From positions 1 through 32,994 of the forward strand of contig WVZK01000092.1 of NCBI GenBank assembly GCA_011772475.1: a stretch of 32,994 nucleotides of DNA, given 5' to 3'. The translations under genes were made by a program, and so were the position numbers. Below the pieces are notes generated by a model. It worked only from the letters and a program-made list of their open reading frames with translations. It was not told the origin of the DNA and ran no database searches. Shown here piece by piece: positions 5,828 to 25,075 of the stretch. Numbering within the stretch: position 1 is the first letter of the stretch; every line of letters begins with the position of its first letter. The stretch comes from Candidatus Aminicenantota bacterium. GTDB taxonomy: Bacteria; Acidobacteriota; Aminicenantia; Aminicenantales; Aminicenantaceae.

Positions 5828-8344
5828 TTATTCTTCAGAAAGTTCAAATCTCTCCAAAATCTTAAGCATTTTCCTGCCTTTCTTAACCTTATCTTCGAAA
5901 GGAATATCCTCGATCAAAGGCAGGAGGACTTCTATTATTTCTTTCTTCACAATGTTGTCGAGAAGCTCTATAGAATAATCTATGGCTTTTTTGGTTCCAG
6001 TAGTAATATTTTGATAAGCTTTTATGATATCTTCCCTGGGGAAGATAAGACTTAGCAACTCAAAAATATATTTAAGCGACCGAGCTAAATTATTCTCTAA
6101 ATCTTTAGCCAAAAACTCTTTTTTCTTATCGGTTTCTAAATCATGGATTTCTTTTAAAATAAGGTAAGATTCTTTTATTTCCCGAATAATTTGAGGCACT
6201 ACAATCTGTTCTCGGAAATGAATTTCAGGCTTTTCTGACCTCATCTTATACATGGCGCTAACGATTTCAGATTCCACATCCCTGCTTTCTTTTCTTAATT
6301 CTAAGGACAATACATCAGCTGCCCTTTGAGCGCCTGTTTGAGCCAAAATACTAGGTATGGCCTTTCGTAATCGCACATTTTCACTCGGGTCGCCCAAATA
6401 ATCTTTTAGTGTACCTATAACCTTAACCCCATATTCTGCTAAGGCTTTATTGGCAGAACTCTGAAGGGAAGGATTTATTAAATTTTGGATTATATAAGGT
6501 ACAAGCTCCCGTTTTTTAAGCTTCCCAGCGCTCTCAAGAGCATAACTGACGACTTCTGGCGATTTATCCCTGAGAAGTTTACCTAGATTATGGACGACAG
6601 AGGGAGTCGGCTCCATCATCCCCATAACCTTAGCTGCCTCCATCCTAGAAACTTCCTCCTCTTTACCTTCCTCACCTACAATTTTATCGAGATGGTCTTT
6701 CATAAGTTCTTGATAAACATTCAAGGACATGATCTCTTTTACCTGGGCATCAAGGCTTTCCTCATCGAGAGCATCTTCGGTTTCCGGGATTAACACCTCT
6801 CCGTCTACTTCAAGAAGAGAATCCATAGAACTAGCCCTTACCTCGTCAGATTTATAAGAAATTATTTTTTTAAGCTTAGAGCTCAACTTTTCTTTCTTGA
6901 CAAGGTCAAAAAGATTCATGGCATACAGCACCGAACTCCTTTTCTTGCTTTCGATGGTGTCGAAAACCAGCTTTGTCATATCAATATCAATCTTTTCGGC
7001 AACAAATTTATCAGCATCTTGCCATTTTATCTCGATGTTTTTCTTCACAATATTCACATACTCCTTGGTAATCAAAAGGTTGAGAATGATCCAGATAAGT
7101 ATAAACGCGATGGCGACGAAGCTTATATATTTGATCTCAAAGCTCAGGACTGAGAAAAACAAAAGAATTAGAAGAGCTCCTATGCCTTTAGCAAACTTGT
7201 TGACGAACATGTCGATGAATACTTTTGCTTTGTACTTTATCTCAGGAGGGATCGGGATATAAAGCAATTCCCTGACAGATTGGTTGAGTGAATGAGCAAG
7301 ACTTTTGTCGGTTCCTTTGATAATAAGAGCCCAATAAACTAAAGCGAAAGGGAAAATAAAAATCACACCAGACAACAGCAACAAAAAGAATGGGGCAACC
7401 AAAAGAGCAACCCGAATTCCAAAATTTTTCAAGATGCTGTTGGTCGAGAAAACATGAAGGAGATTTGAAAAAATAAGGAATACGGTAAAAAATATGCCGA
7501 GAAAAGCAGTCCTCGCATCCTTGCTCGGATAGGCATCTTCGACAAAATAATTGAACTGAAAATCAATCAAAGTTGTAACAATAATAGCCGCTGCCATAAT
7601 CCCGGTCAAAAGCAACAAATGTCGATTTTTTCTAAGCAGGCCAAAGCTCTTACCATATCCAATTTTTGGCCTCTTCCGCACCTCAGCTGGCTTGACCTCC
7701 TCTTTTTTCTCTTTTTGAATGACTCTATGAACGCGACTGACAATGACGAGACAGATACAAAGCATAAAAGGGCAGATTAAAAGAAGATTTTCGGTTCCCA
7801 CAATTTTAGACAAAGAAGCAATGAGAGCTCCCGCAACTCCACCCAAAAGCCCTCCGCTCACTAAGAAGCCGACAAGTCTTTTTGCCTGCCGAGGATTATA
7901 AATATCATTGATCAATATCCAGAATTGAGTAACAGAAGTTACCAGGAATATATCTGCCCAGAACCAGAATACCATTGAAATCCAATTCCAGTATAAAAGA
8001 GGTAGCCAATTCCTTCCTTGAGTGAAAAGAAGCCAGAATATTAAAAGACAAGTTATGAAAAAGACCAAGCTGAGAGATATGTATACGTGTCTCTTCACAA
8101 CCCGCAGCAGCCTTGAGTTCAGGGTGACAAAAAATCCTATCAGGATGGCAGTCAAAAGATATGCATAAGGGAGTCTCCTGGATGAAAGCTTCTCCAGGAA
8201 ATCGGAAATCTTGACCAGTTTGATGATGTAAGCAGAAGAAGTGATCAGGAAAAAATAAGAAAACATAAGCCCAGAGGTAGATATTTCCTCAGGCCTGACA
8301 TCAACAAAGCGTGACAGAATTTTATGAAATGAGTTCTTAGCCAT
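5828..8344 (-). CDS. ATP/ADP translocase-like (Npt/NTT, MFS-type) membrane protein with C-terminal HEAT-like domain
   Basis: Multi-TM N-terminal half with VTQFWILINDIYNPRQAKRLVGFLVSGGLLGGVAGAL; C-terminal soluble alpha-helical repeats. The track start 8353 is GTG; ATG at 8344 gives MAKNSFHKILSRFV, aligning with the paralog MAKNLLNRVLSRFV. Confidence 0.75.
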   Translation of the reverse strand: MAKNSFHKILSRFVDVRPEEISTSGLMFSYFFLITSSAYIIKLVKISDFLEKLSSRRLPYAYLLTAILIGFFVTLNSRLLRVVKRHVYISLSLVFFITCLLIFWLLFTQGRNWLPLLYWNWISMVFWFWADIFLVTSVTQFWILINDIYNPRQAKRLVGFLVSGGLLGGVAGALIASLSKIVGTENLLLICPFMLCICLVIVSRVHRVIQKEKKEEVKPAEVRKRPKIGYGKSFGLLRKNRHLLLLTGIMAAAIIVTTLIDFQFNYFVEDAYPSKDARTAFLGIFFTVFLIFSNLLHVFSTNSILKNFGIRVALLVAPFFLLLLSGVIFIFPFALVYWALIIKGTDKSLAHSLNQSVRELLYIPIPPEIKYKAKVFIDMFVNKFAKGIGALLILLFFSVLSFEIKYISFVAIAFILIWIILNLLITKEYVNIVKKNIEIKWQDADKFVAEKIDIDMTKLVFDTIESKKRSSVLYAMNLFDLVKKEKLSSKLKKIISYKSDEVRASSMDSLLEVDGEVLIPETEDALDEESLDAQVKEIMSLNVYQELMKDHLDKIVGEEGKEEEVSRMEAAKVMGMMEPTPSVVHNLGKLLRDKSPEVVSYALESAGKLKKRELVPYIIQNLINPSLQSSANKALAEYGVKVIGTLKDYLGDPSENVRLRKAIPSILAQTGAQRAADVLSLELRKESRDVESEIVSAMYKMRSEKPEIHFREQIVVPQIIREIKESYLILKEIHDLETDKKKEFLAKDLENNLARSLKYIFELLSLIFPREDIIKAYQNITTGTKKAIDYSIELLDNIVKKEIIEVLLPLIEDIPFEDKVKKGRKMLKILERFELSEE

Positions 8345-8349
8345 TAAGT

Positions 8350-10872
8350 TCACTGCATCTTAGGAAAAGCCTTAAAAAGAACCCTGCATTTTTTTACCCT
8401 TTCTTCAAGCGAAAGATCTTCAATAAGCGGAAAGATTACATCTCTAATATCTTTGGGCAGTATATTATCGAGAAGTTCGACAGCATAATCTATAGAATCC
8501 TTCGTTGCCGTCCTTATGTTCTGGTATGCTCTGAAAATATCCTCGTGAGGATAGATGAGCCCCAATAATTTAAAAATGTTCATCATTGAAGCGGCCAGAT
8601 CCTCTGACAATTTTCCGCTCATCTCTGGCCTCTTTACTTCAGATTTTGTTTCGTAAGAATTAATAAGAATCTGATAGTATCTCTTTATTTCTTTGAATAT
8701 CTTAGTCTTTATAATCTCCGCCTGGACCTGAATATCAGGCTGTCCAGAACGAATCCTATCCAAAGCATCTATGAGCTCATTATCCATATCTTCGTTTTCT
8801 TCTGCTAACTCCCAGGCTAATAAATCTGCAGAATCTTGAATAGGAATTCGAGCCAAAACTGAAGCCACTTCTTTCCGCAATCCAACATCCTCGTCATAAT
8901 CTCCCAAATAATCTGACAGAGTACCGACAATTCTTTCCCCATATTTTTCAAGAGCAGCAGAGGCATCTTCTCTCGTTAAAGGATTATCTAACTTGTAGAT
9001 TAAGCCAGGAACAAGCTCTCTTCTCTTTAGCCTTGCCGCGCTTTCAATTGCATATTTACTCACTTCTGGCGATTCATCTTCAAGGAGTTCTTCAAGTTTT
9101 TGAGCAAGCGGAGAATCAGATTCCATCAATCCTATGGCTTTGGCCACTTCCATCTTTGATGTCTTAGTTTCATTAGTCTTATCAACTAGGACTTTGTCAA
9201 TGTATCCTTTCATCACCTCTTGATAAACATCTAGGGACATTATCTCTTGAACCTCTTTTTCCAAGACTTCCTCGCCTAACATGTCATCCGTTTCAGGAAT
9301 TAAGGTTGTCTCCCCAGATTCAAATAAACCCCCTAATGAAGCGACTCTCCTTTCATCGGCTTTATAAGAGATTAATTTTCTCACTTCAGGAGTGAGCTTA
9401 TCTTGCTTAATCAAATCATAGAGATGCATGGCGTACAAAACTGAACTTCTTTCCCTGCTTTCTATCGTATCAAAGACTAATTTTGTATAATCCACATCCA
9501 TCTTTTCAGCCACCAATCTATCCCCTCTATCCCACTTCACATCTAATTTCTGTTTAACAATATTGGTATACTCTTTGCTTACTTTTAGGTTAAGTAGAAG
9601 CCATGCTCCGATAAAAATAACAGCAATAATGCTCACAAGTTGAACTTTATCTCTCCAATCCCACTGCCAATTTTCAGGGGGAAGAAAGATATAAACTAAA
9701 AACAAAAGTATCAAGGCCCCAACGCCTTTGGCAAATCTATTGAGAAACATATCGATAAATACCTTTGCTTTATACTTAAGCTCCGGCGAGATAGGGATAT
9801 AAAGTAGCTCCCGCACATACTGGTTAATAGAAAAAGAGAGACTCTTATCGCCAGCTTTGATAGCAAGAGCAAAAACAAAAATTTCAGGCCGATAGCCTAT
9901 TCCAAAAATACAAAGCAACAATACTAGAGGGAAGAGTAAAAGAGTAACGCGAATCCCATAGCGTTTAAGAATATTGCTGGACATAAATATTGATATGAAA
10001 AAAGGAATAACCAACAATGCTGCATGAAAAAATCCAAAAAATTCCAACTTTTCATCCATTCTCTCTATTTTAATGTCGATAACAGTCTTGGACTGCCAAT
10101 CAATAAATGTTGAAACAATAAATGTTAAAGTCACGACACCAGCCAGAAGTTTTAAATAATAATTTTTTCTCACTGTATTAAAACAATCTATGAAGCCAAC
10201 CTTAACCTGCTCTGCCCCCCTTTCTCTATGTTTATGATCTACCTTATCATCTGGAGGGGACTTTTTTCTCTGCCAAATGAATATATGATTTACGACAAAA
10301 ATACTGAGCACAAGCAATCCAGAGGCAATGATAAGAACAATATCGGGCATGTCTCTACCTAATAATCCCGTCAGCAAACCCCCTAAGATACCTCCAAAAA
10401 GTCCGCCACTACCAAAGAAGCCAATCAGCCTTTTGACTTCTCTCGGATTAAAAATATCATTCACTAATATCCAGAATTGGGTTATAAGGACCACAACAAA
10501 AGTGTTTGCCCACACCCAAAATGCGAGAGGCATCCAACTCAAATCCAGATTGAAAAGCCAGCGAGAAAGTAAACAGGTGAGAGCAAAAAATGTGACGCTT
10601 GAGATTATTAAGACGCGTCTCTGAATTCTAACTTGAAGCTTGGTATAAAAATGAACAAAAAAACCCATAAAAAGAGCTGTTAATAAGTAGGCATAAGGTA
10701 GTCTTGCAGATGTTAACTCAATTAAGTATTTTGCATCTCTATAGGGTTTAATAATGTAATACGGGAACATAATAAGAAAGAGATAAAGAAAAAGAAGGGA
10801 GGCAATGACTTCTTCGCCGGGTTTGATCTCTACAAAGCGCGATAGAACTCTATTGAGGAGGTTTTTTGCCAT
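8350..10872 (-). CDS. ATP/ADP translocase-like (Npt/NTT) membrane protein with C-terminal HEAT-like domain (tandem paralog)
   Basis: Paralogous over full length to the downstream gene: ITQFWILVNDIFNPREVKRLIGFFGSGGLFGG; KLVFDTIESRERSSVLYAMHLYDLIK. Confidence 0.75.
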   Translation of the reverse strand: MAKNLLNRVLSRFVEIKPGEEVIASLLFLYLFLIMFPYYIIKPYRDAKYLIELTSARLPYAYLLTALFMGFFVHFYTKLQVRIQRRVLIISSVTFFALTCLLSRWLFNLDLSWMPLAFWVWANTFVVVLITQFWILVNDIFNPREVKRLIGFFGSGGLFGGILGGLLTGLLGRDMPDIVLIIASGLLVLSIFVVNHIFIWQRKKSPPDDKVDHKHRERGAEQVKVGFIDCFNTVRKNYYLKLLAGVVTLTFIVSTFIDWQSKTVIDIKIERMDEKLEFFGFFHAALLVIPFFISIFMSSNILKRYGIRVTLLLFPLVLLLCIFGIGYRPEIFVFALAIKAGDKSLSFSINQYVRELLYIPISPELKYKAKVFIDMFLNRFAKGVGALILLFLVYIFLPPENWQWDWRDKVQLVSIIAVIFIGAWLLLNLKVSKEYTNIVKQKLDVKWDRGDRLVAEKMDVDYTKLVFDTIESRERSSVLYAMHLYDLIKQDKLTPEVRKLISYKADERRVASLGGLFESGETTLIPETDDMLGEEVLEKEVQEIMSLDVYQEVMKGYIDKVLVDKTNETKTSKMEVAKAIGLMESDSPLAQKLEELLEDESPEVSKYAIESAARLKRRELVPGLIYKLDNPLTREDASAALEKYGERIVGTLSDYLGDYDEDVGLRKEVASVLARIPIQDSADLLAWELAEENEDMDNELIDALDRIRSGQPDIQVQAEIIKTKIFKEIKRYYQILINSYETKSEVKRPEMSGKLSEDLAASMMNIFKLLGLIYPHEDIFRAYQNIRTATKDSIDYAVELLDNILPKDIRDVIFPLIEDLSLEERVKKCRVLFKAFPKMQ

Positions 10873-10904
10873 AAATTGACTCGACTATAAGAAGCTCGTG
10901 AAAG

Positions 10905-11255
10905 TTACTGATCCTTATTAAAGCTATCCAAGGCGACTTCTTCTTCGTCAAAAATTTCAAGCACTTTAGTTAGCATTGTGACTTGAAAGACGAGGTAGAG
11001 TTTCTTTGATATTTTTGCTATCTTCAGTTTCCCCCCTAGATTATGAGTAGAAATATAGCTGGCCAATATTTCCCCTACCCCGAAGCTATCGATAAAATCG
11101 ACATTCTGAAAATTGAGAAGTATGTTCCTTTTGCCGGCATCCAATTGATCTTTAACGAGCTGATGAAGAGTGAAATCGGTTACGTCCGATCTTCTTATCT
11201 CCCCCTCGATATCAAAAATAACAATATCTGTTTTTTCTCTTGTATTAATTTCCAT
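10905..11255 (-). CDS. STAS domain protein (anti-sigma factor antagonist, RsbV-like)
   Basis: 116 aa; NILLNFQNVDFIDSFGVGEILASY carries the STAS phosphosite-type DSFGVG motif. Confidence 0.85.
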   Translation of the reverse strand: MEINTREKTDIVIFDIEGEIRRSDVTDFTLHQLVKDQLDAGKRNILLNFQNVDFIDSFGVGEILASYISTHNLGGKLKIAKISKKLYLVFQVTMLTKVLEIFDEEEVALDSFNKDQ

Positions 11256-12373: not shown

Positions 12374-13537
12374 ATGAAAAACGACGTTATTAAGTTAATG
12401 ATGAGAAAAACTAAAGCTATACTACTATTAGCCGTTCTCGCCTTCGCCTCTCTTGCCAATCTGTGTTCAGCTGATACACAGTGCGAATGGACTGGCATCG
12501 AAAAGATTGTAGCTGTGGGAGACATACACGGCGACTACCAGGCCTTCGTCGAAATTCTAAAAGGAACAGGATTAATAGATAAAAAACTCCATTGGACAGG
12601 TGGGAAGACTCACCTGGTTCAAATCGGGGATGTATTAGATAGAGGTGATTACGCCAAGGAAATTCTTGACCTGTTGATGCAACTGGAAAAAGAAGCAGAA
12701 GAAGCAGGAGGCATGGTTCATATGCTGATTGGCAATCATGAAGAACTAAATGTTACAGGCCTAATCTTTAACCGAGAAGAATTTACTACACGCCAACTTG
12801 TCTCTTTTCTTCCTGATGGGTACAGGGAGAAGCAAGTAAAAAGATTCAGAAAAATACTGGGAGACAATCCAACTACAGAAACAGGTCTGTATGCATCCTT
12901 AGATAGTGATTTAATCCCCTACTGGGAGAATATGTTTAACGAGGTGAAAGCAAGCCGCAGACATCCCGCTAGAAGGGAATACTTATACAATTTTAATAAG
13001 AAATACGGAAAATGGATCGTTAAACAAAATGCTGTAATTAAAATCAATAATATCGTATTTGCGCACGGGGGAGTCAGCGAGAGATTATCCAAATGGGAGC
13101 TAAAGAGAATAAATAATCGCCTTCGGTTAGAGTTAGAAGATCTGAGGCGGGCGGCGATGAATCAAACACGACCTAAGATTCAAGATTATCAGCGCCAAAT
13201 TGTTTATGCACCTGATGGGCCATACTGGTACAGGGGTTTTTATTTAATGGATGAAGATGAGAATAAAGACACCGTGGATACAATCCTAAAAAACCTCGGC
13301 GCTGAATACATGGTAATAGCCCATACTCCTCAGGTAATTAAGTCAAAGGAAGATATGCAGCTTTTTCAAGGAAGGATTTGGATAATCGATACTGGTATTT
13401 CAAAAATCTACAGAGAACACTTGCAGGGACGCCTCAGCGCCTTGATTATAAACAAAGGAGAATTCGATGTATGGGGGTTGGACAATGAAAAAAAAGAAAG
13501 CCTTAGCCATAATGATTCTTACATTCTTTTTCTCTGA
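12374..13537 (+). CDS. Secreted Shewanella-like PPP family phosphatase (metallophosphoesterase)
   Basis: Signal peptide MMRKTKAILLLAVLAFASLANLCSA; PPP motifs VGDIHGD, IGDVLDRGD, IGNHEE, FAHGG, WYRG, IAHTP. Confidence 0.85.
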   Translation: MKNDVIKLMMRKTKAILLLAVLAFASLANLCSADTQCEWTGIEKIVAVGDIHGDYQAFVEILKGTGLIDKKLHWTGGKTHLVQIGDVLDRGDYAKEILDLLMQLEKEAEEAGGMVHMLIGNHEELNVTGLIFNREEFTTRQLVSFLPDGYREKQVKRFRKILGDNPTTETGLYASLDSDLIPYWENMFNEVKASRRHPARREYLYNFNKKYGKWIVKQNAVIKINNIVFAHGGVSERLSKWELKRINNRLRLELEDLRRAAMNQTRPKIQDYQRQIVYAPDGPYWYRGFYLMDEDENKDTVDTILKNLGAEYMVIAHTPQVIKSKEDMQLFQGRIWIIDTGISKIYREHLQGRLSALIINKGEFDVWGLDNEKKESLSHNDSYILFL

Positions 13538-14276
13538 AGCCTGGTTTCACTCAAAATCACAAGCAGTTACTCAAGAAAATGAGAAGCAAAAAGAGCTGGA
13601 GAATTACTTAAGAACAGCTAAGATTGTATCTAAGAGGCGAGCAGGAGGCAGGGGAGAAAACTGGATAATAAGCCTGGACGATGGAAAAATTTCGAGCTAT
13701 GCATTCTATAAGCTTCTTGATGAAACTAGACCAGAGGCCCCTATCGGCGACAGCTATAAATACGGGATTGCTGCCTATGAGCTGGATAAACTCCTTGATC
13801 TTGGCTTAGTCCCTCCTGTCGTAGAAAGAGAAATAGAAGGCAGAAAAGGTTCGCTTCAGATATTCATCGAGGGCGCTCTATATGAAAGTGTCCGAAGGAT
13901 GAAGAATATTAAGCCACCAGAGCCTGAGAAGTTTAAAAATATTATGGAAGACTTAATTGTTTTTGAGAACTTGACTTGGTCCCCCTCCTATTGCGGAGAG
14001 AGAGAGCTGGACGATATCCTAATAATGCAGAGAGAGGACTGGAAAGTCTGGAGGGTTGACTTCTCTGAAGCCTTTCCCCCTTCACCAGAGCTAATCCCAG
14101 GATGCGAAATAACTGGCTGTTCCAAGAGGCTTTGTGAAAACCTGATAAAATTGAATGATGAAGCGATTAAAGCCAAGCTAAAGCCTTATCTAAATGATGA
14201 AGAAATGAGCATGTTGCTGAGAAGAAAAAAACTCATCGTTGAAAAGATCAAAAAACTAATTGCTGAAGAAGGGTAA
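13485..14276 (+). CDS. Secreted degenerate kinase-like protein (paralog of the genes at 17339 and 18250)
   Basis: Start MKKKKALAIMILTFFF (signal peptide) preferred over upstream ATG 13467; shared segments LRTAKIVSK, YGIAAYELDKLLDLGLVPPVVER, KGSLQIFI, WRVDFSEAF; the NxDRxxxN catalytic motif is not recognisable. Confidence 0.7.
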   Translation: MKKKKALAIMILTFFFSEAWFHSKSQAVTQENEKQKELENYLRTAKIVSKRRAGGRGENWIISLDDGKISSYAFYKLLDETRPEAPIGDSYKYGIAAYELDKLLDLGLVPPVVEREIEGRKGSLQIFIEGALYESVRRMKNIKPPEPEKFKNIMEDLIVFENLTWSPSYCGERELDDILIMQREDWKVWRVDFSEAFPPSPELIPGCEITGCSKRLCENLIKLNDEAIKAKLKPYLNDEEMSMLLRRKKLIVEKIKKLIAEEG

Positions 14277-14754: not shown

Positions 14755-16158
14755 ATGAAAAATTTGGGCAATGAAGAGATGGTGCAAACCGGGCAAAAAC
14801 CGCCTGGATTCGCTTATAAAATTCTCAGACTTTTCACAGTCGTCCATCCTGGCGAAGCTTTATCGGTTTTACTTTTAACGCTTAATGTATTTTTTCTCCT
14901 TACGGCCTATTACATCCTAAAACCAATAAGAGATGCCTTAATTGTTGAGGAGTGGGGTGCTAATATTAAACTTTATCTTAACGCTGTTGCAGCGGTTTTG
15001 CTGATATTTGTGGTTAAAATATTCAGCAGCATTGCTTCCAGGTTCCCACGTCAGAAATTAATCACATGGGTAACGCTCTTTTTCATTTCCAATATAGTAA
15101 TTTTCTATATTTTACATTTATCAGGTATTGGACCTGCAGTTTTTGGCATCGGTTTCTTTATTTGGGTAGGCATTTTTAACTTGGTCGTTATTGCTCAATT
15201 CTGGGGTTTTGCCAACGACTTATACACAGAGGAAGAAGGGAAACGCTTATTCCCTTTGATTGCTTTCGGAGCAGTCTTTGGAGGTTTTGCAGGAGGAATG
15301 ATAACTAGTTGGCTTGTGGAGCCTCTTGGAAAATATCAGCTGCTGCTTATATCAGGAGGATTACTGGGAATTTGTATTTTATTTACCTGGATTATTCATA
15401 GAAGAGAGATAAAAAGAATTGAGGCTAAGGTCTCTGAAGTTGGCCAGGAGGAAAAACTAAAGGTAGAAGTACATGAGAGACCCTTAGAAAAGGTAGGAGC
15501 ATTCCAGCTTCTCTTCAAAAATCGATATCTTCTCTACATCGGTTTTTTTGTTCTTTTGATGAACTTTATCAACACCAATGGTGTTTTTATACTAGACAAA
15601 GTAGGCGAAATCGCTGCAGCCAAAGCCACAGAAGCGGAATTTATGACTAAGTTTTATGCAAGCTTCTATAATATCCAGAATCTCTTCGCCATGTTCGTTC
15701 AGCTGTTCGTCGTATCTCGTGTCTTTAAATGGTTTGGAGTAAGAGTGGCGATCTTCATCCTTCCAGTTCTTGCTCTGGGAGGATATTTCTTTGTGGGCCT
15801 TGGAGCAGCTCTGGTATTGGTAAAATGGGTTAAAGCTTTGGAAAATGGTGCTGATTACTCGCTTGTGAACACAGCCCGGCATTCTCTGTTTCTAATCACT
15901 TCAAGAGAAGAAAAATACAAAGCCCAGGCCGTGACAAAAACCTTCTTCCATCGAGCAGGCGATGTGCTTGCTGCCGTGTTTGTTTTCTCATGTACAACTT
16001 TTCTAGCTTTTTTTACCATAGAGAATGTGGCGATGGTCAATGTTGTTCTGGTCTTGATCTGGATAACCATTTGCATTTTAATCTTCAAAGAGCACAAAAG
16101 ACTATCAGAGAAAAAAGCAGAGCTAGGCGTAGAATATTTGAAAACAGATGAAAAGTAG
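14755..16158 (+). CDS. Npt1/Npt2-type nucleotide transporter-like (ATP/ADP translocase family) protein, no HEAT extension
   Basis: 467 aa multi-TM; YYILKPIRDALIVEEWGANIK, VVIAQFWGFANDLYTEEEGKRLFPLIAFGAVFGGFAGG; RBS ggggagg upstream. Confidence 0.8.
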   Translation: MKNLGNEEMVQTGQKPPGFAYKILRLFTVVHPGEALSVLLLTLNVFFLLTAYYILKPIRDALIVEEWGANIKLYLNAVAAVLLIFVVKIFSSIASRFPRQKLITWVTLFFISNIVIFYILHLSGIGPAVFGIGFFIWVGIFNLVVIAQFWGFANDLYTEEEGKRLFPLIAFGAVFGGFAGGMITSWLVEPLGKYQLLLISGGLLGICILFTWIIHRREIKRIEAKVSEVGQEEKLKVEVHERPLEKVGAFQLLFKNRYLLYIGFFVLLMNFINTNGVFILDKVGEIAAAKATEAEFMTKFYASFYNIQNLFAMFVQLFVVSRVFKWFGVRVAIFILPVLALGGYFFVGLGAALVLVKWVKALENGADYSLVNTARHSLFLITSREEKYKAQAVTKTFFHRAGDVLAAVFVFSCTTFLAFFTIENVAMVNVVLVLIWITICILIFKEHKRLSEKKAELGVEYLKTDEK

Positions 16159-16178: not shown

Positions 16179-17027
16179 TTAGCGCAGGTCTTTGATTTTG
16201 ATGATTCCCCCCTCGCCCTGAGCAATGTACAAATAGCCTTCTTCATCCTTGGCAAGACCTTCCTGGTTGTTCCCGAGGAAAGCATATTCCCTGATTAATT
16301 TCCCCTCAAGAGTTATCTCTACCAGGATGTTGTAAGCATCGCTGACAATGTTTAAATTCCCTGTTTTTCTATCATAATACATGCCTCCAGGATCATCCAT
16401 TTTGAACGGTAGAACCCGGATAATCCTGGCCTCGGCCTCCTCGCCTTGGCTCGACTCAAGGGGAACCAGAATTTCCACTATACAAGCAGGGTCCCATTGA
16501 TTGCCCGCATAGAAAGTCCCGCCTTCAGGATGATCTTTATCAGCGACAAAAGCAATTGATTCAATCCCCTGATCGTAGCCTTCCTGTTTTTGGAGAAAGT
16601 TAGGATTTCCCTGGAATTCTCTGTTTATAGGAAATATTCGGCTGACCTGTCTCTTTTCAGGATCAAATTCCAGGATGACGTCCTCCCCTTCTCTGACGAT
16701 GTATAGAAGCCCTGATTGATGATTGACTGTTATCCCTTCCAAATCCCCGGGAATTTTTAGTCTAAATACAGGGTTTCCGTCAGTCTTTATTTCAGTAATT
16801 TCTCCTTCATCACTCACGACAAAAAGAGTTTTTCTGAGGGGGTGAAAACAGATACCCGAAGGTTCCACAAAGCTTTGCTGGTCAATGTTTACTCCATACC
16901 CAGGAATTCCCAGCCAATCTGCAGGAAATCGGATCGTCGGTGAATTTTCTTCTGGCGAACAACTGGCTAACAAAATTAAAGCGCCAAGCAAAAAAAGCTT
17001 TATTTTCATTCCCAATCCTTTTTTCAT
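16179..17027 (-). CDS. SdiA-regulated (YjiK-like) beta-propeller lipoprotein
   Basis: Lipobox LLASC; VEPSGICFHPLRKTLFVVSDEGEITEI, GDLEGITV, GIESIAF, NQEGLAKDEEGYLYIAQ. Confidence 0.8.
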   Translation of the reverse strand: MKKGLGMKIKLFLLGALILLASCSPEENSPTIRFPADWLGIPGYGVNIDQQSFVEPSGICFHPLRKTLFVVSDEGEITEIKTDGNPVFRLKIPGDLEGITVNHQSGLLYIVREGEDVILEFDPEKRQVSRIFPINREFQGNPNFLQKQEGYDQGIESIAFVADKDHPEGGTFYAGNQWDPACIVEILVPLESSQGEEAEARIIRVLPFKMDDPGGMYYDRKTGNLNIVSDAYNILVEITLEGKLIREYAFLGNNQEGLAKDEEGYLYIAQGEGGIIKIKDLR

Positions 17028-17338: not shown

Positions 17339-18172
17339 ATGAGACGGAAAATATTTCTTACCGTAGCTCTATTCATTTTTGCCAGCCAAAGCAATGTAGT
17401 CTACGGGCAGTTCACCCCTGATGAAATTGCTCAAAGGCAAGAAATAGAAGAATTTCTCAAAACTGCAGAGATCGTGAGATTCGAGGACATACCAGAAGGC
17501 GTTACAAAGCCAATCAGGCTCTTCTTAAAAAAAGGAGACGTTGAAATGAGCGGGGCCTGGAAAAATCCCAAGGGGATGCAAAAGGGCTTTCTTGAGGGAT
17601 GGCAGTATGAAATCGCAGCTTACGAGATGGATAAACTTCTGGAACTAAACTTGGTTCCACCCACAGTCGAGAGGATATTCAACAAGAAAAAAGGCTCCCT
17701 TCAGTTTTGGGTCGATGTTCAATTCAGTGAGCTCACTGTATTCGAACAAAAAATCGGGATTCCTCGTTCAAAATTCGAACACAAGGAGAATATGAAATAT
17801 TTAACGAGGGCTTTTGACTGCTTGATTGCGAACGATGATCGAACGCAGCAGAATATCCTCTACACCAAAGATTGGCGCGCGATTTTGATAGACCATTCTC
17901 GCTCTTTCCGGTCAAGCAAGAAATACACCAAGAAACTCATGTTTGGGAAAACAGGATTGAAAAAAGCCGGTGGTCGGCCCCAGCTCTTCAGGCGACTTCC
18001 TAGGGCTTTTGTGGAAAAGGTCAAAGCTCTGAACTATGATAATATAAAAAATGCTGTAGGTCCCTATTTAGAGGACAAGGAGATCAAAGCTATCCTTATC
18101 CGTAAGGAGCTTCTTCTTAAAGAAATAGAGGAGATGGTAAAGGAACAGGGCGAAGATAAGGTCTTATATTAA
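17339..18172 (+). CDS. Secreted PI3/4K-, HipA- or FAM20-like kinase-fold protein
   Basis: RBS GGAGGA (17327..17332) before ATG 17339; signal peptide MRRKIFLTVALFIFASQSNVVYG; SGAWKN (beta3 Lys), YEIAAYEMDKLLELNLVPPTVER, IANDDRTQQNILYTKDWRAILIDHSRSF. Confidence 0.75.
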   Translation: MRRKIFLTVALFIFASQSNVVYGQFTPDEIAQRQEIEEFLKTAEIVRFEDIPEGVTKPIRLFLKKGDVEMSGAWKNPKGMQKGFLEGWQYEIAAYEMDKLLELNLVPPTVERIFNKKKGSLQFWVDVQFSELTVFEQKIGIPRSKFEHKENMKYLTRAFDCLIANDDRTQQNILYTKDWRAILIDHSRSFRSSKKYTKKLMFGKTGLKKAGGRPQLFRRLPRAFVEKVKALNYDNIKNAVGPYLEDKEIKAILIRKELLLKEIEEMVKEQGEDKVLY

Positions 18173-18249
18173 TATATAAATTCAATTAATTCAGGATACA
18201 TTTTAGAAAAATCAGGCGGAAAATCAAAATTAAAAAGGAGGAGAGAAAA

Positions 18250-19086
18250 ATGAAAAAAAGACTGATTATCTTTTTCGGTTTGGTGCTTGTTTTAGGATTT
18301 AGTTTCCAATCCATAGCTCAATTCACCAAAGAAGAGGCGGCAGACAGGGAGAAATGGGAAGAATTCCTCAAGACAGCAGAAATTATCGCTCAAGAACAAC
18401 CATTCGATAAACGAGAAGCTGTGACCGAGCCCTGGGTCCTCACTCTGGAAAAAGACGGAGTCAAAAATAAAGCCATATGGAAAGATGTACAAGGCCGGGC
18501 AAAAGGATTTATGGAAAGCTGGAAATGGGAAATTGCTGCCTACCTTTTAGATAAGCATTTGGGCTTGAATATGGTTCCGCCCACAGTGGAAAGAAGATTC
18601 CAGGGAAATCGCGGCTCCTGCCAATTATGGATTAAATCGATGATGAGTCTCAAGAAAAAATTCGAGGAAAAAATTAAGACTCCCTCTATTAAAGTTTTTT
18701 ATTGGAATAGAGCCTTCTACAAACAGCGGGCTTTTGATAACTTAATTGCTAACGAAGATAGACATCAAAATCAATATCTCATCACCGATGATTGGCGCAT
18801 GATCCTAATTGACCACTCCCGGTCGTTCCGGACTGCCAAGAAATTTACCAAAAAACTCATCTATGACGAAAAATACAAAGAAGGCCCAACGTTTATCATG
18901 AGGGAACTTCCCCGCGATCTTTACGAGAAGATAAAATCCCTGAATGCTGAGGTGATAAAAGGCGTCGTCGGAGAATATCTGACAGATAGCGAAATCGAGG
19001 CAGTGCTTATCCGGAAGGACTTGATAGTCAATTGGATTGAGGATCGCATCAAACAAATGGGGGAAGATAAAGTCTTATACGATTAG
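18250..19086 (+). CDS. Secreted PI3/4K-, HipA- or FAM20-like kinase-fold protein (tandem paralog)
   Basis: Signal peptide MKKRLIIFFGLVLVLGFSFQSIA; NKAIWKD, WEIAAYLLDKHLGLNMVPPTVER, IANEDRHQNQYLITDDWRMILIDHSRSF; RBS aggaggag upstream. Confidence 0.8.
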   Translation: MKKRLIIFFGLVLVLGFSFQSIAQFTKEEAADREKWEEFLKTAEIIAQEQPFDKREAVTEPWVLTLEKDGVKNKAIWKDVQGRAKGFMESWKWEIAAYLLDKHLGLNMVPPTVERRFQGNRGSCQLWIKSMMSLKKKFEEKIKTPSIKVFYWNRAFYKQRAFDNLIANEDRHQNQYLITDDWRMILIDHSRSFRTAKKFTKKLIYDEKYKEGPTFIMRELPRDLYEKIKSLNAEVIKGVVGEYLTDSEIEAVLIRKDLIVNWIEDRIKQMGEDKVLYD

Positions 19087-19505
19087 ATAGAGGACTGCGC
19101 TTCTTTAATTGTTTTATAAATAGTAAGAACGTTCTGATCTTTCTCCCGCTTGTAATCAAATCCATCCATAAGCTTGCGGGAAAGGAAAACTCCTAATCCA
19201 CCTTTTTTCTCGCTCTTGATTATCTCCCGGATATTAGGCTCCTCCAATCCTCTAGGATCAAACGGAACGCCCCAATCCCTTATTTCCAGATACATCTTTC
19301 CCTCGTCCAACCAAATCTTAAGAAAGATCTCGCCTTTATTATTAGGATAAGCATACCTGATAATATTTACACATATCTCCAGGAGCGCGAGTTCTATCTT
19401 AAAGTAATCCTTATCTGAAACACTCAATCCTTCCAAGTTTTGCTTCAAAAAAGTCCTCATCTTATCTAACTCAGCTAAATCACTTGCGATTTTTATTGTA
19501 TTCAT
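19083..19505 (-). CDS. ATP-binding anti-sigma regulatory factor (RsbW-like, HATPase_c_2)
   Basis: FKIELALLEICVNIIRYAYPN (N-box), LEIRDWGVPFDP (G1), KKGGLGVFLSRKLMD (G2). Confidence 0.85.
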   Translation of the reverse strand: MNTIKIASDLAELDKMRTFLKQNLEGLSVSDKDYFKIELALLEICVNIIRYAYPNNKGEIFLKIWLDEGKMYLEIRDWGVPFDPRGLEEPNIREIIKSEKKGGLGVFLSRKLMDGFDYKREKDQNVLTIYKTIKEAQSSI

Positions 19506-19641: not shown

Positions 19642-22600
19642 CTATTCCAAAAGTTTAATTTCAGAGGCGAAAAGGCCAGTCCATCTATAAGAGGGGTCTA
19701 TTTCAGCAGCTTTTCTAAGGTATTCTCTCGCTCGAATTTTTTCTCCAAGCGCGTCACATGCCATTGAAGCCCAAAGATAATATTGAGGCTTTAATTTCCT
19801 GCTGTGCTCAATCAGGCTCTCACTCTTTAATTTCATCTCATTCAAAAGCCTCTCTGCTTCATTAACCTCCCCGAGTTTTCGCAATGAGAGAGCCTTGTAA
19901 TATGAATGGATTGTGGGAATTCCTGTTGTTTCTACTTTGACTTTGTTGGTATATTTTTCTGCCCTTTGCAAATTCCCCATCTTTTCATAACATAATCCTA
20001 TAAAGAAATATTCTCTTGTGAATAAAGGATGCAGCGGTCTCCCCGTTCCTAAGTTTTCTGGATATTGCATAGCTTCGAAAAAGTCATCAATCGCTTTTTT
20101 GTATTTTCCGTTCTTCATATAAGAATAGGCTCTTCCCAGGTGAGCGAGTACAAATACTTCCCTTGCACCTGTCCAGCCTTCCCAGGGAAGGAAAGTATTG
20201 CTCTTCAATATTTTAAATGCTTTTGAGTATTGTTCGGTGTCCACATAATATTGCGCTCTTTTGAGCACGTAATTGAAGTTCTTCTTTACAGCACGAGGAG
20301 CCTCCCTATAAAGTTTCTTTCTTGCAGAGTGGTCCTTGGTTAAAGCGTATAATTCATCAATAGCCAAATAAAGACGATAATCATCTGAGGAAAAAGAGAG
20401 CGCCCTTTCATACAGCGCTAGAGCCCTCTCATAATCTCTAAGCTTCTTCCAATAAATCTCTCCAAGGTTTCTGTAGATAGTCGGAAACTCAGGTGAAAAA
20501 TCTGCTGCATTTTTATAGTATTCCAATCCTTCTTCCCATCTCAGCTTAGCCACAAGAAGATTTCCAAGATAGTAGTGCGCTTTCCAATCAGAAAGATTAT
20601 ATTCTATAGCAAGCTTCAGCACACTCTCGGTTTCAACTCTAAAGGGAAAGATATAATCTGGACTGCAGGCTACTGCTTTTTTAAAGTATGCTGCTGCCTC
20701 CTCTTTTCGCCCGACTTTGTCGTTAAAGAATCCTAAATAGTAATAAATGATAGGATAATCTCCGGCGTTTAGATTCTCGCTATAAATCTCGAGCACACGT
20801 ATGGCGTCCTCTGTTAGGTTCATTTCTGAATAATCACTGGCCGCTTCAATATAATATTCTGGATCCGCCCTTAAAATATCAAGCTCGCTTTCTCCGGAGA
20901 GCAACTCCTTCTCCAAAAGTGCAACAGGCGAAATCGGGTCCTCTTTTAAAGCTGAATCTATGAGTGTTTCAGCACCTCTATTATTGTTAAGATGTCTTTC
21001 CGCGGCGGCAAGCATGACTCTTGCTTTCAAACCGACGGGATTATTTCTGATTGCATCTCTCAACAGTTCTCTTGCTCTTCTATAGTTTTTCTTTTTAAAC
21101 TCAAGAGCAGCAAGAAGATAAGGAGCAACATGCCTGTAAGACGCCCTTCTGGAGACCATGTAAAGATCCTCCTCTGAACCCTGTGTGATTCCAAGCTTTA
21201 TTTTAGAAAGAGCTCTATAATAGCGAGCCGTATGATCGTCTTCATTTCTTTTGAGCACTCTTTCAAACAGGTCAAGCGCTTCTTTAGTTTTTCCTGTTTT
21301 GTAATAAAGTATTCCAAGCCATTTAAGGGAAGGAGAAAATTCAGGGTCCTTCTCGAGTGCCTTCATGAAATAGTACATGGCTCCCTCTGAGTCCCAGTGC
21401 TTCATCGAATAATAACCTTTGAGGAAAATTATCTCCGCCGAATCGCTCTCCTGCATTGAAAAGTCTGGCTGGAGCTCAGGAGGGGAAACCTCTTTTTTCT
21501 CTGTCGTGTAGTCTATTATTTTCTGCCCGTATTGATCCAGGAACTCAAGCGTGTAAATTCCCCGGCTTTCTCTCGAGAAAATCTCCTGTTTATAAGAACC
21601 ATCGGGAGAGATATCTAGCCTCTTTGAAAATATCTGCCTTTCTCCGCGGGAAAGTCTAACTTCAGCATTATTGAATGCCCTCGTAGTATTAAGAGCGATA
21701 AAGACTCCTTCCTCTCTTAGCTCCAGGTTCAGAGCAGCATCTGGATTTGCCTTTACAAACCCGTGCATATTCTTTAATGGATACCACCACTCATCCCATT
21801 CCTCGACAAGATGGGGCTCGAAAATCCAGGTATCGCCCTGAGTTAGAAGTCTTCCTGCCTGGATCTCGATATACTGACCATCTTCATCTGTAAGAATATC
21901 CTCCCAAATAGTGCCGCTGGGAGCTGTTCCCCAAGTCCAGAATTTCTTCCCAGGACTCTGATATCTCGAAGCATAATGAGCTGTGCCGTTATCTTTCTCG
22001 TAATTGTAGGCACCGTTATAATCTCCAGGGGTTCCGCAGAAATAATCGTGAGCATTGGCTGTATTCTTATACCAGGAAACATCTTTTCCTTGATAGATAG
22101 GCCAGGGCTTTGGGCTCTTTCTGCTTCCAGCATAAGTGTATTCAGCAGGAGGGAAAACAACTCTTGTCTCCCTTCTGGCATGGGTAGCAGCATTTGCCCA
22201 GAAATACCCGTTGTTATGAGTAAGCGTCCTGTTGTAAAGCCTTATCCTGGTTTTGAAGTAAGACCTGCCGGGAAAAATGCTTATGAAAACTTCCCACTTC
22301 ATCCTTCTCACCCACTCTTCTGTCCCGACCACACAGGTAATGCTCCCGTCAGCATTATTGAGAATCTTGTAATTTACTGGCGAGAACGTGTTTACAGTAT
22401 GGCCCAGGGTTGGAAAGTTCCACTCAATCCCGCCAGAAAGCCAGGCACCTCTTAGGGCTACAAGACCCGGCTTTATCACCCGATTGTGATAGATGAAGTC
22501 AAAATTGTTGTTTGTTTTGTCGATAGCAGCAAGAATCCTTCCTCCCACATCGGGCAGGATCATAAGTTGGATGTAATCGTTTTCCATCACAACTACTCTG

Positions 22601-22824
22601 TATTGTCCTGTAATTTTCTCACGGGTTATGTCAGTCTGCATCGGATAAGGATAAACCCTTAAATTCCATAGAGGAGGGCTCGGGTCGTCAGGACCTGTAT
22701 AGTATGTGGGAATATTCATCTCAATTTCTTTTACCGACACTTCTCCTGAAACCGAGAGGCATATGATAAGAATCGCCGGGATTATCACTATTAAAAGAAA
22801 GATCTTTCTTTTCATTTTTTCCAC
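19642..22824 (-). CDS. Exported DUF5107 domain protein with TPR repeats
   Basis: Signal peptide MKRKIFLLIVIIPAILIICLSVSG; VVVMENDYIQLMILPDVGGRILAAIDKTNNNFDFIYHN; many TPR units such as PTIYRNLGEIYWKKLRDYERALALYERAL. Confidence 0.85.
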   Translation of the reverse strand: MEKMKRKIFLLIVIIPAILIICLSVSGEVSVKEIEMNIPTYYTGPDDPSPPLWNLRVYPYPMQTDITREKITGQYRVVVMENDYIQLMILPDVGGRILAAIDKTNNNFDFIYHNRVIKPGLVALRGAWLSGGIEWNFPTLGHTVNTFSPVNYKILNNADGSITCVVGTEEWVRRMKWEVFISIFPGRSYFKTRIRLYNRTLTHNNGYFWANAATHARRETRVVFPPAEYTYAGSRKSPKPWPIYQGKDVSWYKNTANAHDYFCGTPGDYNGAYNYEKDNGTAHYASRYQSPGKKFWTWGTAPSGTIWEDILTDEDGQYIEIQAGRLLTQGDTWIFEPHLVEEWDEWWYPLKNMHGFVKANPDAALNLELREEGVFIALNTTRAFNNAEVRLSRGERQIFSKRLDISPDGSYKQEIFSRESRGIYTLEFLDQYGQKIIDYTTEKKEVSPPELQPDFSMQESDSAEIIFLKGYYSMKHWDSEGAMYYFMKALEKDPEFSPSLKWLGILYYKTGKTKEALDLFERVLKRNEDDHTARYYRALSKIKLGITQGSEEDLYMVSRRASYRHVAPYLLAALEFKKKNYRRARELLRDAIRNNPVGLKARVMLAAAERHLNNNRGAETLIDSALKEDPISPVALLEKELLSGESELDILRADPEYYIEAASDYSEMNLTEDAIRVLEIYSENLNAGDYPIIYYYLGFFNDKVGRKEEAAAYFKKAVACSPDYIFPFRVETESVLKLAIEYNLSDWKAHYYLGNLLVAKLRWEEGLEYYKNAADFSPEFPTIYRNLGEIYWKKLRDYERALALYERALSFSSDDYRLYLAIDELYALTKDHSARKKLYREAPRAVKKNFNYVLKRAQYYVDTEQYSKAFKILKSNTFLPWEGWTGAREVFVLAHLGRAYSYMKNGKYKKAIDDFFEAMQYPENLGTGRPLHPLFTREYFFIGLCYEKMGNLQRAEKYTNKVKVETTGIPTIHSYYKALSLRKLGEVNEAERLLNEMKLKSESLIEHSRKLKPQYYLWASMACDALGEKIRAREYLRKAAEIDPSYRWTGLFASEIKLLE

Positions 22825-23024
22825 CTAAATCCAGAATATAATATTAAATCAAACCTCGTCAACGAATTGAAGAAAGCCATAAAATGAATATTTAATATTA
22901 AAACTGAGTATTATCTCCGTTTAGCAGTTCATCCAGATATTTTTTTAGGAGTAGAATTAAAGGTAAGAAAAGAGGAAAAATAAGAAGATTAAGAAGTTTC
23001 AAAAAAGGGACGGAAAATTCTGCT

Positions 23025-23053
23025 ATCTGGATATTTTATTATCCAGATTTTTT
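23025..23053 (+). terminator. Intrinsic-terminator-like hairpin in the 22.8-23.07 kb gap
   Basis: ATCTGGATA-TTTTAT-TATCCAGAT followed by TTTTTTT on + strand; flanking genes are on the minus strand, so the role is uncertain. Confidence 0.4.
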
Positions 23054-23068
23054 TATTTAAATATTTCT

Positions 23069-25015
23069 CTACTTAGACTCAGATGGAGGGACTGCGCCGA
23101 ATAATTGAACTCTGTTATTGTTTCTTTCTACAACATAGACATAGCCTCGGCTATCAATGGCAACATCGACCGGATATTGCATTTGGCCGTTATTTGTTCC
23201 CGGAGTTCCCCATTTAGCTATAAACTTACCACTTCCATCAAATTTCTGAATTCTATTGCTGCCAGAATCAGCCACATATACAAAGTTTAAATTATCAATA
23301 AATATTCCCTGGGGATTGTTAAGCTCGCCATCTGCTGTGCCTCTTCTTCCCCATGAAGTAATAAATTCTCCTTCTAAAGAGAATTTTTGAACCCGGACTC
23401 TATCAACGACGAAAACTTCGTTCTTTTGACTTACAGCTATTCCTTTTGGATAGACAAAATCGCCGTTTGCAGTGCCCTGCTTTCCCCATATTTTCTTTAA
23501 AACACCCTGACTTGTGTATTTCTTCACGCGGTGGTTTCCAGAATCAACGACATAGATATCGTTTTTACTATCAACCGCAATTCCAGAGGGAGTCTTAAAC
23601 TGGAGATTTTCAGTACCTTCTGTGCCCCATTTTCTTTTATAAGTCCCTGCCCTATCAAATTTCATAAAACTGTGAGTTTTTGCGTCTGTGACATACACAT
23701 TGCCCTGACTATCAACAGCAACGCTCGTAGGATTCTTTAATATCTTGAATTGTTTTCCAGAAGCTCCCCAGGCGGTCTGGACTCTCCCTTCTGGATTAAT
23801 TTTCTTCATCTTAATCCGTCCTGAATCAACAATATAGATATTATTAGCCTTATCAATGGCAATTCCAGCAGGCTGAACGAATAGTTCGCTCGCTGGTCCA
23901 CCCCATTTAAGAAGATAAGCATATTTATTAGGAGTCAGGGCCATTTGAACTACTACGGGCTTCTCACCTTCCACCTTTACGTTGTCCTCCCATTCTGCAT
24001 AATTCTCTTTCACTACTTTTATTTTATGAGACCCAAAGGGTACAAGCGGCAGCACAGTGTTGGTCACTTTTGCTGTATCCTTACCATCCAGATAAACCTT
24101 TGCTCCTGCCGGAGTGGATTTTACTTCCACATCTATCCCGGCTCTCTCTAAGGAATATCTTTTTCCTGTAGTAGCCTGAGTGATAAAGAACTCATCTTTA
24201 ACCGGCTTGTATCCATTTTTTTCGATTTCGATGACAATCTTGGGGTTGGATGTCCTGTATATCTCAGGAGAAAGCCCTATATTCTGGCCGTTGACTTTTA
24301 TTTTTGCCTCCTTGGGAATAGTCGATATCTCAACAGAATATTCTGTAACCAATCCTAAATATTGCTTCTCAGCTTGTTCAATCAAGGCTACAACTTCGGG
24401 ATCAAGGATATTCCGGGTTATCTCCTTTGCATAAGGATGATGGACCGAAAACATACTCTTGAATTCATTCAAGGCAGCATACGCATCGCCCTTGCCAGCA
24501 GAAGCAAGACCTAACCACAGAAAGAGCTCTGCTCCCAATTCTCTCTGCTTATTATGGTCTGAAACGTTAAAAACCTCAGCAATCAAAGGCTTTAAAGTGC
24601 TTATTGCTTTTTCAAAATCCTTCTCCAGCCTTATCTGCTTCCTGCCTTCCTCCATCTTGACTTCAATCCCTGCCACAATTTCTGGCTGAGATTTCGCAGG
24701 CCTGCCTGGACCTCCTGCTTCTTCCCTGGCCAGTTCCCTCTCGCTCACCTCATCAACATTCATAGCGTGAATATAACCTGAGGATCCTTGCCAAGTAACC
24801 TTGTACCAATCTCCTATTTTGGTCTCAGCATTCAAAACTGTATTCAGAGGAATTCTGGTAAGAGTCTTCCCTCCGATTGCGCGCGTTGCTTTTACGCTGG
24901 CATTATCAAGAATAACCTTTATTTTTACGGGGGCTGCCTCAAGAGTGACGAGGAGAAAAAAAAGAACAAAAATACTTAATATTCTCATTCCCCTGCTAAA
25001 ATTCTTTGATTCCAT
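23069..25015 (-). CDS. Exported SH3-like - PEGA - NHL-repeat protein
   Basis: SH3b: WYKVTWQGSSGYIHAMN; two PEGA units (IPKEAKIKVNGQNIGLSPE; STPAGAKVYLDGKDTAKVTN); about 6 NHL units (AIDKANNIYIVDSG, AVDSQGNVYVTDA, AVDSKNDIYVVDSGNHRVKKY). Confidence 0.85.
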   Translation of the reverse strand: MESKNFSRGMRILSIFVLFFLLVTLEAAPVKIKVILDNASVKATRAIGGKTLTRIPLNTVLNAETKIGDWYKVTWQGSSGYIHAMNVDEVSERELAREEAGGPGRPAKSQPEIVAGIEVKMEEGRKQIRLEKDFEKAISTLKPLIAEVFNVSDHNKQRELGAELFLWLGLASAGKGDAYAALNEFKSMFSVHHPYAKEITRNILDPEVVALIEQAEKQYLGLVTEYSVEISTIPKEAKIKVNGQNIGLSPEIYRTSNPKIVIEIEKNGYKPVKDEFFITQATTGKRYSLERAGIDVEVKSTPAGAKVYLDGKDTAKVTNTVLPLVPFGSHKIKVVKENYAEWEDNVKVEGEKPVVVQMALTPNKYAYLLKWGGPASELFVQPAGIAIDKANNIYIVDSGRIKMKKINPEGRVQTAWGASGKQFKILKNPTSVAVDSQGNVYVTDAKTHSFMKFDRAGTYKRKWGTEGTENLQFKTPSGIAVDSKNDIYVVDSGNHRVKKYTSQGVLKKIWGKQGTANGDFVYPKGIAVSQKNEVFVVDRVRVQKFSLEGEFITSWGRRGTADGELNNPQGIFIDNLNFVYVADSGSNRIQKFDGSGKFIAKWGTPGTNNGQMQYPVDVAIDSRGYVYVVERNNNRVQLFGAVPPSESK

Positions 25016-25075
25016 TTTCCCCTCCTCTCTTAAACTATAAGCGTTTTTCTTGACAACTCAATCAATGTCTTATCT

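Follow-up and report, generated by a model that had tools for sequence, protein, structure and literature searches.

Predicted exported FAM20-like kinases encoded with a secreted phosphatase and an ATP/ADP-carrier homologue in Aminicenantes

What could a kinase do for a bacterium that exports it? ATP is normally cytoplasmic, and a first-pass annotation of the window, that is, the whole 32,994-nucleotide stretch of a Candidatus Aminicenantota contig analysed here, had made this remark about two neighbouring open reading frames with signal peptides and kinase-like motifs. The remark is sharpened by our finding that an NTT/TLC carrier homologue is encoded beside the kinases. We propose that the region encodes an export-based module by which targets outside the cytoplasm are reversibly phosphorylated, perhaps with this carrier as the source of nucleotide, and we give this reading a probability of roughly 0.6.

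The kinase pair, its predicted fold and export

The pair at 17339-19086 was recovered as annotated. K1 (17339..18172, + strand, 277 aa) and K2 (18250..19086, + strand, 278 aa) are separated by 77 bp, and a GGAGG-type ribosome-binding-site-like sequence lies upstream of each ATG (17339 and 18250). Scans for promoters and terminators gave a signal no better than chance. The two proteins are 48% identical over a full-length alignment; since the E value is 4e-83, chance similarity is ruled out and they are real paralogues.

The motifs quoted by the annotation were all there, namely A-W-K, the alphaC-like segment, NxDR (NDDRTQQN in K1, NEDRHQNQ in K2), IDHSRSF in both and the C-terminal tail, and most of them are invariant or near-invariant in 92 relatives. 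In the 92-sequence K1/K2 alignment, W77, K78, E94, N168, D170, D188, H189 and S190 (K2 numbering) are invariant and R171 is nearly so, and the C-terminal L276 and Y277 also belong to the invariant or near-invariant positions. NxDR was found in 59/59 K2 and 45/47 K1 relatives (104/106 in total). A near-invariant Glu or Asp five residues before E94 falls in the same column as Glu213 of ceFam20, a residue discussed as needed for activity in Fam20C (Zhang 2018, PMC5865150); distant K relatives carry Asp at this position, as hydra Fam20 does. Comparison with orthologues from a sister species gave dN/dS values of 0.13 for K1 and 0.08 for K2. Judged from sequence and model, K1 and K2 are likely to be catalytically active. 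The proteins end in a GEDKVLY tail, encoded at 18149-18169 in K1 and 19060-19080 in K2, which is near-invariant across the family.

The annotation had named several atypical kinase families and a structural comparison with HipA, FAM20C and PI4KII. The AlphaFold2 model of K2, built on the 92-sequence alignment (pLDDT 91.6, pTM 0.87), has a kinase fold, and Foldseek against the PDB placed FAM20 proteins at all of ranks 1-10 (TMq 0.59-0.65), with PI4K-II next. Among these ten are hydra Fam20, which was the best match (E 4.4e-9), Fam20A, zebrafish Fam20C and the worm Golgi casein kinase. HipA was absent both from the best 50 folds and from the sequence matches of the profile to the PDB. At E<=1 the profile matched only FAM20 proteins among PDB chains (FAM20A 3.7e-5, FAM20B 3.2e-4, FAM20C 1.3e-3), and EIAAYxLDKxLxLNxVPPTVER of the K family was aligned to a FAM20 segment in this search. 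The catalytic Asp, metal Asp, Lys and two alphaC-region acidic residues of FAM20 all have counterparts, invariant or near-invariant in the 92 sequences. The proposed atypical kinase fold, with intact motifs and export, survived this comparison, and among the families that had been named the predicted fold and the profile point to FAM20 rather than HipA.

Among named families, TIGR03843 (SCO1664) is closest in sequence; it matched 92/92 members but far below its curated cut-off (47.7 against 172.4 bits), and the genome itself holds no TIGR03843 match above that cut-off. Pfam PF06702 (FAM20) scored 13.0-13.6 bits against a gathering cut-off of 26.8, with 61/92 members matching only at E<=0.1, and PF20613 (HipA_2) scored 14.8-17.5 bits against 27. 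Because the nearest curated matches lie far below their cut-offs, we describe K1 and K2 as FAM20/SCO1664-like and as formal members of neither family. HipA, PI4K and SCO1664 were each rejected as the filing family, being more distant by fold or below their own cut-offs.

K1 and K2 both begin with a run of basic residues that leads into a single hydrophobic stretch; a cleavage-like site of small residues then precedes QFT. Export was judged by a crude rule for the n-, h- and c-regions of a signal peptide, with cytosolic controls as baseline. Under this rule signal-peptide-like starts were seen in 45/47 K1, 56/59 K2, 25/25 K3 and 22/25 phosphatase relatives, against 14/133 controls, which bears out the signal peptides claimed for both open reading frames. 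Such starts were also assigned to 33/35 distant kinases and 18/19 distant SLP phosphatases. The same crude scan detected no lipobox in the kinase relatives, and K1 and K2 have one hydrophobic segment each and no second transmembrane segment. Taken together, sequence and model support both fold and export well, and we predict with high confidence that K1 and K2 are exported kinase-fold proteins.

The cassette in Aminicenantes and beyond

The tandem pair stood, but the first-pass annotation had overlooked both the degenerate third paralogue at 13485-14276 and the other members of a cassette. Gene order was mapped in 20 regions from relatives and in 79 public-genome loci, two sets that partly overlap. 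The common order is a Shewanella-like phosphatase (SLP), K3, the carrier homologue TLC0, an SdiA-regulated protein on the opposite strand, K1, K2 and a convergent HATPase gene.

SLP (12374..13537, + strand) is a predicted secreted PPP-family phosphatase. It matched the solved Shewanella phosphatase 2z72 at E 3.6e-36, and it has all PPP signatures (GDxHG, GDxxDRG, GNHE, HGG and (I/L/V)D(S/T)G), which read GDIHG, GDVLDRG, GNHE, HGG and IDTG. The last is the motif of bacterial-type PPPs, according to the signature definition in PMC535813.

K3 (13485..14276, + strand, ATG at 13485) starts before the phosphatase gene has ended. The two genes overlap in most loci, and in several genomes they form one open reading frame of about 620 aa. 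The catalytic NxDR was found in 0/25 K3 relatives, whereas the metal-site Asp is retained (DFSEAF). The K3 model has a kinase fold (pLDDT 89.8) with structure matches to PI4K-II and FAM20, and its dN/dS of 0.23 indicates purifying selection. As the fold is kept and the gene is still under purifying selection despite the loss of NxDR, we regard K3 as a secreted pseudokinase; a pseudogene is ruled out by the dN/dS value together with conservation in 25 loci. K3 relatives often have a C-terminal tail comparable to that of K1 and K2 (GEEAVLF).

TLC0 (14755..16158, + strand) is an NTT/TLC ATP/ADP-carrier homologue of 467 aa with about 11 hydrophobic segments. It matched Pfam PF03219 (TLC) with 45.8 bits against a cut-off of 21 (E 5e-12), and its profile matched the solved ADP,ATP carriers 9j3n (8e-14) and 9j3j (1.3e-8). 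The KEMAYIPL signature common to both solved ATP/ADP carriers reads RHALFLIT in TLC0, and the alignment puts Arg at the Lys position taken as K155 of AtNTT1. It is reported that the K155R change in AtNTT1 nearly abolishes binding (PMC3306366). Three TLC proteins were found in the assembly, all inside the window; the others are the NTT-HEAT-type fusions TLCa (5828..8353, - strand) and TLCb (8350..10872, - strand) in the wider neighbourhood.

Here and in many relatives, TLC0 and K1 are separated by a gene (16179..17027, - strand) for an SdiA-regulated/phytase-like beta-propeller protein that carries an N-terminal signal; speculatively, this protein is a candidate substrate, partner or phosphoesterase. 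The HATPase_c_2 (RsbW-like) gene (19083..19505, - strand) converges with K2 throughout the taxonomic order. A conserved flank (5828-11255 and 3869-5545, - strand) encodes TLCa and TLCb along with a STAS protein and an FHA-GAF-PP2C protein; taken with the RsbW-like HATPase, this set resembles a partner-switching unit connected to NTT proteins. In several close relatives the cassette is followed, as at 19642-27070 (- strand), by genes for a large TPR protein, an NHL-repeat protein and a Ser/Thr protein kinase. The segment 412-3658 (+ strand) encodes a CodB-like permease as well as two conserved enzymes that, judged only by eye, resemble DUF917 and AroM; the permease and the DUF917-like enzyme are also encoded next to the cassette in two relatives (loci L036 and L037).

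In the 27 K1-K2 tandems with enough upstream sequence, SLP was found within 8 kb in 25, TLC0 in 23 and K3 in 23, and in eight loci TLC0 comes immediately before K1 with a gap of -4 to 98 bp. Among 60 related genomes, SLP is present in 41/48 with K and in 0/12 without K, and K and TLC are jointly present or absent in 58/60; these linkage and co-occurrence counts, as well as those for the phylum below, take each genome as independent and make no correction for shared ancestry. The losses are spread over several genera and families. Some loci have K genes with neither TLC nor SLP beside them. The gene-order maps of relatives held no conserved glycan-pathway gene in the cassette. Since the roles of NTT proteins in free-living bacteria are unknown (PMC5381601), the linkage of TLC and kinase is itself informative.

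A fourth kinase copy of the same genome stands alone on another contig (C202, locus L051, 2628-3545). Its neighbours, a GPAT-like acyltransferase, an alpha/beta hydrolase and a B12-binding protein, were uninformative as a clue to the substrate. A mobile or viral origin was rejected, as relatives were found in neither viral contigs nor plasmids.

A phylum-wide Acidobacteriota sample had K relatives in 78/396 genomes. In 30 genomes elsewhere in the phylum, 20/30 SLP matches lay within 6 kb of a kinase gene against 0.29 expected, and so did 12/74 TLC matches against 0.63 expected. Four distant loci (L173, L174, L176 and L177) encode SLP-kinase fusions with intact kinase motifs. The ancestor of the Aminicenantes K3, which is fused or coupled to SLP, was therefore probably a phosphatase-linked kinase that was still active. 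A tree resolved K1, K2 and K3 as three fully supported clades and placed K1 as sister to K2; among their nearest outside relatives are SLP-linked kinases. A scan of public contigs with strict Aminicenantes-type patterns gave loci nearly all labelled Aminicenantes or Acidobacteria.

A proposed extracytoplasmic module and its alternatives

We propose that the signal peptides would direct K1 and K2 through Sec across the inner membrane, and that the proteins would fold outside the cytoplasm as FAM20-like kinases. There they would phosphorylate an extracytoplasmic protein or glycan, and the co-encoded SLP, in view of its PPP-family motifs and tight linkage, would take the phosphate off. Reversible phosphorylation with SLP is in our judgement probable. 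K3, translationally coupled or fused to the phosphatase, would probably be a regulatory or docking subunit, linking the phosphatase with kinase or substrate. TLC0 would be the best candidate to swap cytoplasmic ATP for periplasmic ADP and supply the phosphoryl donor. This is the weakest step, because KEMAYIPL is replaced and Arg stands at the presumed K155 position. Known parasite NTTs are importers, and the transport direction of TLC0 would need to be reversed. The supply of ATP by a TLC/NTT carrier is put forward here tentatively. Kinase-fold proteins can also AMPylate, glutamylate or only bind.

The carrier step is also where the strongest competing explanation applies. The TLC/NTT proteins may be unrelated to ATP supply and may instead be components of a distinct partner-switching unit (STAS/PP2C/HATPase) whose genes just happen to lie next to those of the kinases. 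We consider this a real possibility, short of even odds. The conserved flank of TLCa, TLCb, STAS, FHA-PP2C and HATPase genes fits such a unit, as do the departure of TLC0 from the NTT signature and the lack of a known function for the NTT-HEAT proteins of free-living bacteria (PMC5381601). On the other hand, TLC0 lies inside the cassette, its gene overlaps or nearly overlaps K1 in some genomes, the linkage recurs in distant families, and K and TLC were lost together in several lineages. A different substrate is conceivable as well: K1 and K2 may be exported FAM20B-like kinases of glycans or small molecules, acting on a sugar of the cell surface or exopolysaccharide, with SLP as the matching phosphatase. 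The best structural match is a hydra Fam20 solved with sugar, distant relatives share its Asp at the Glu213 position, and in animals the ancestral type is considered to be a glycan kinase like FAM20B (PMC7948968). We judge this explanation unlikely, as SLP belongs to a family of PPP-type protein phosphatases and the cassette has no conserved glycan-pathway gene.

The remaining explanations question the chemistry or the location of the kinases. It is reported that several bacterial kinase-fold proteins carry out other chemistry (PMC10870513), and K3 indicates that the family tolerates catalytic loss, so that K1 and K2 might be non-catalytic or might, for example, transfer AMP. Their catalytic positions are, however, invariant or near-invariant across deep divergence and under strong selection, and K3, which lost these positions, serves as the contrast case; we regard this explanation as improbable. 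Cytoplasmic kinases of the HipA or SCO1664 type, with the hydrophobic N-terminus as a mere anchor, would agree with the TIGR03843 match in every member. The score is far from the cut-off of that family, nearly all relatives show one N-terminal hydrophobic segment and a cleavage-like site followed by the folded domain, and the linked phosphatase is likewise predicted to be exported, which makes a cytoplasmic location very improbable. Reversible phosphorylation outside the cytoplasm remains our preferred reading.

A broader proposal may be drawn, although we hold it to be rather unlikely. Acidobacteriota may possess a self-contained system of extracytoplasmic phosphorylation, partly Golgi-like, with FAM20-like kinases, a pseudokinase, a phosphatase and an ATP-delivering exchanger, and may represent the bacterial stock of animal FAM20. 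Apart from this broader proposal, if the cassette works as we propose, with exported kinases, their own phosphatase, a pseudokinase and a candidate ATP carrier, it would demonstrate that bacteria can run reversible phosphorylation outside their cytoplasm, the NTT proteins of free-living bacteria would gain a possible role, and the origin of FAM20 would become testable. The FAM20 family has been described from animals, and bacterial members are not discussed in PMC7948968 and PMC5865150. The literature that we found, which covered few subscription journals and leaves absence unproven, described no bacterial FAM20-like secreted kinases.

Comparison with known systems

The SCO1664 family gave the best sequence-profile match to the K proteins, which differ from it in their predicted export and in scores far below the family cut-off. 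In the literature searched, no function was reported for this family beyond one passing mention. SLP agrees with the Shewanella-like (SLP/Shelph) phosphatases in its signatures, including IDTG, and in its similarity to the Shewanella enzyme, and differs in being coupled or fused here to FAM20-like kinase or pseudokinase domains. TLC0 resembles the NTT/TLC carriers and NTT-HEAT fusions in its Pfam TLC match above the cut-off and in retaining FWGFAN as well as the late, Lys-rich YKAKAAID, but differs from the NTT/TLC carriers in having RHALFLIT for KEMAYIPL, and its transport is putative.

Compared with FAM20A/B/C (PF06702), K1 and K2 are bacterial, shorter (277-278 aa, whereas the solved FAM20 structures span 349-438 residues) and below the Pfam cut-off, and their genes are linked to those for a phosphatase and for a homologue of nucleotide carriers. 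They have one Cys each, whereas FAM20 has four disulfides (PMC5865150). K3 has lost the catalytic loop and FAM20A another residue, and the proposed role of K3 would be comparable to that of FAM20A, not orthologous. On the other hand, the predicted fold, the EIAAxxLDxxL...VPP motif, the catalytic Asp of DR, the metal Asp of DHS/DNG and the acidic pair are shared with FAM20, and so are export, which is predicted for K1 and K2, and the presence of a pseudokinase paralogue beside active kinases.
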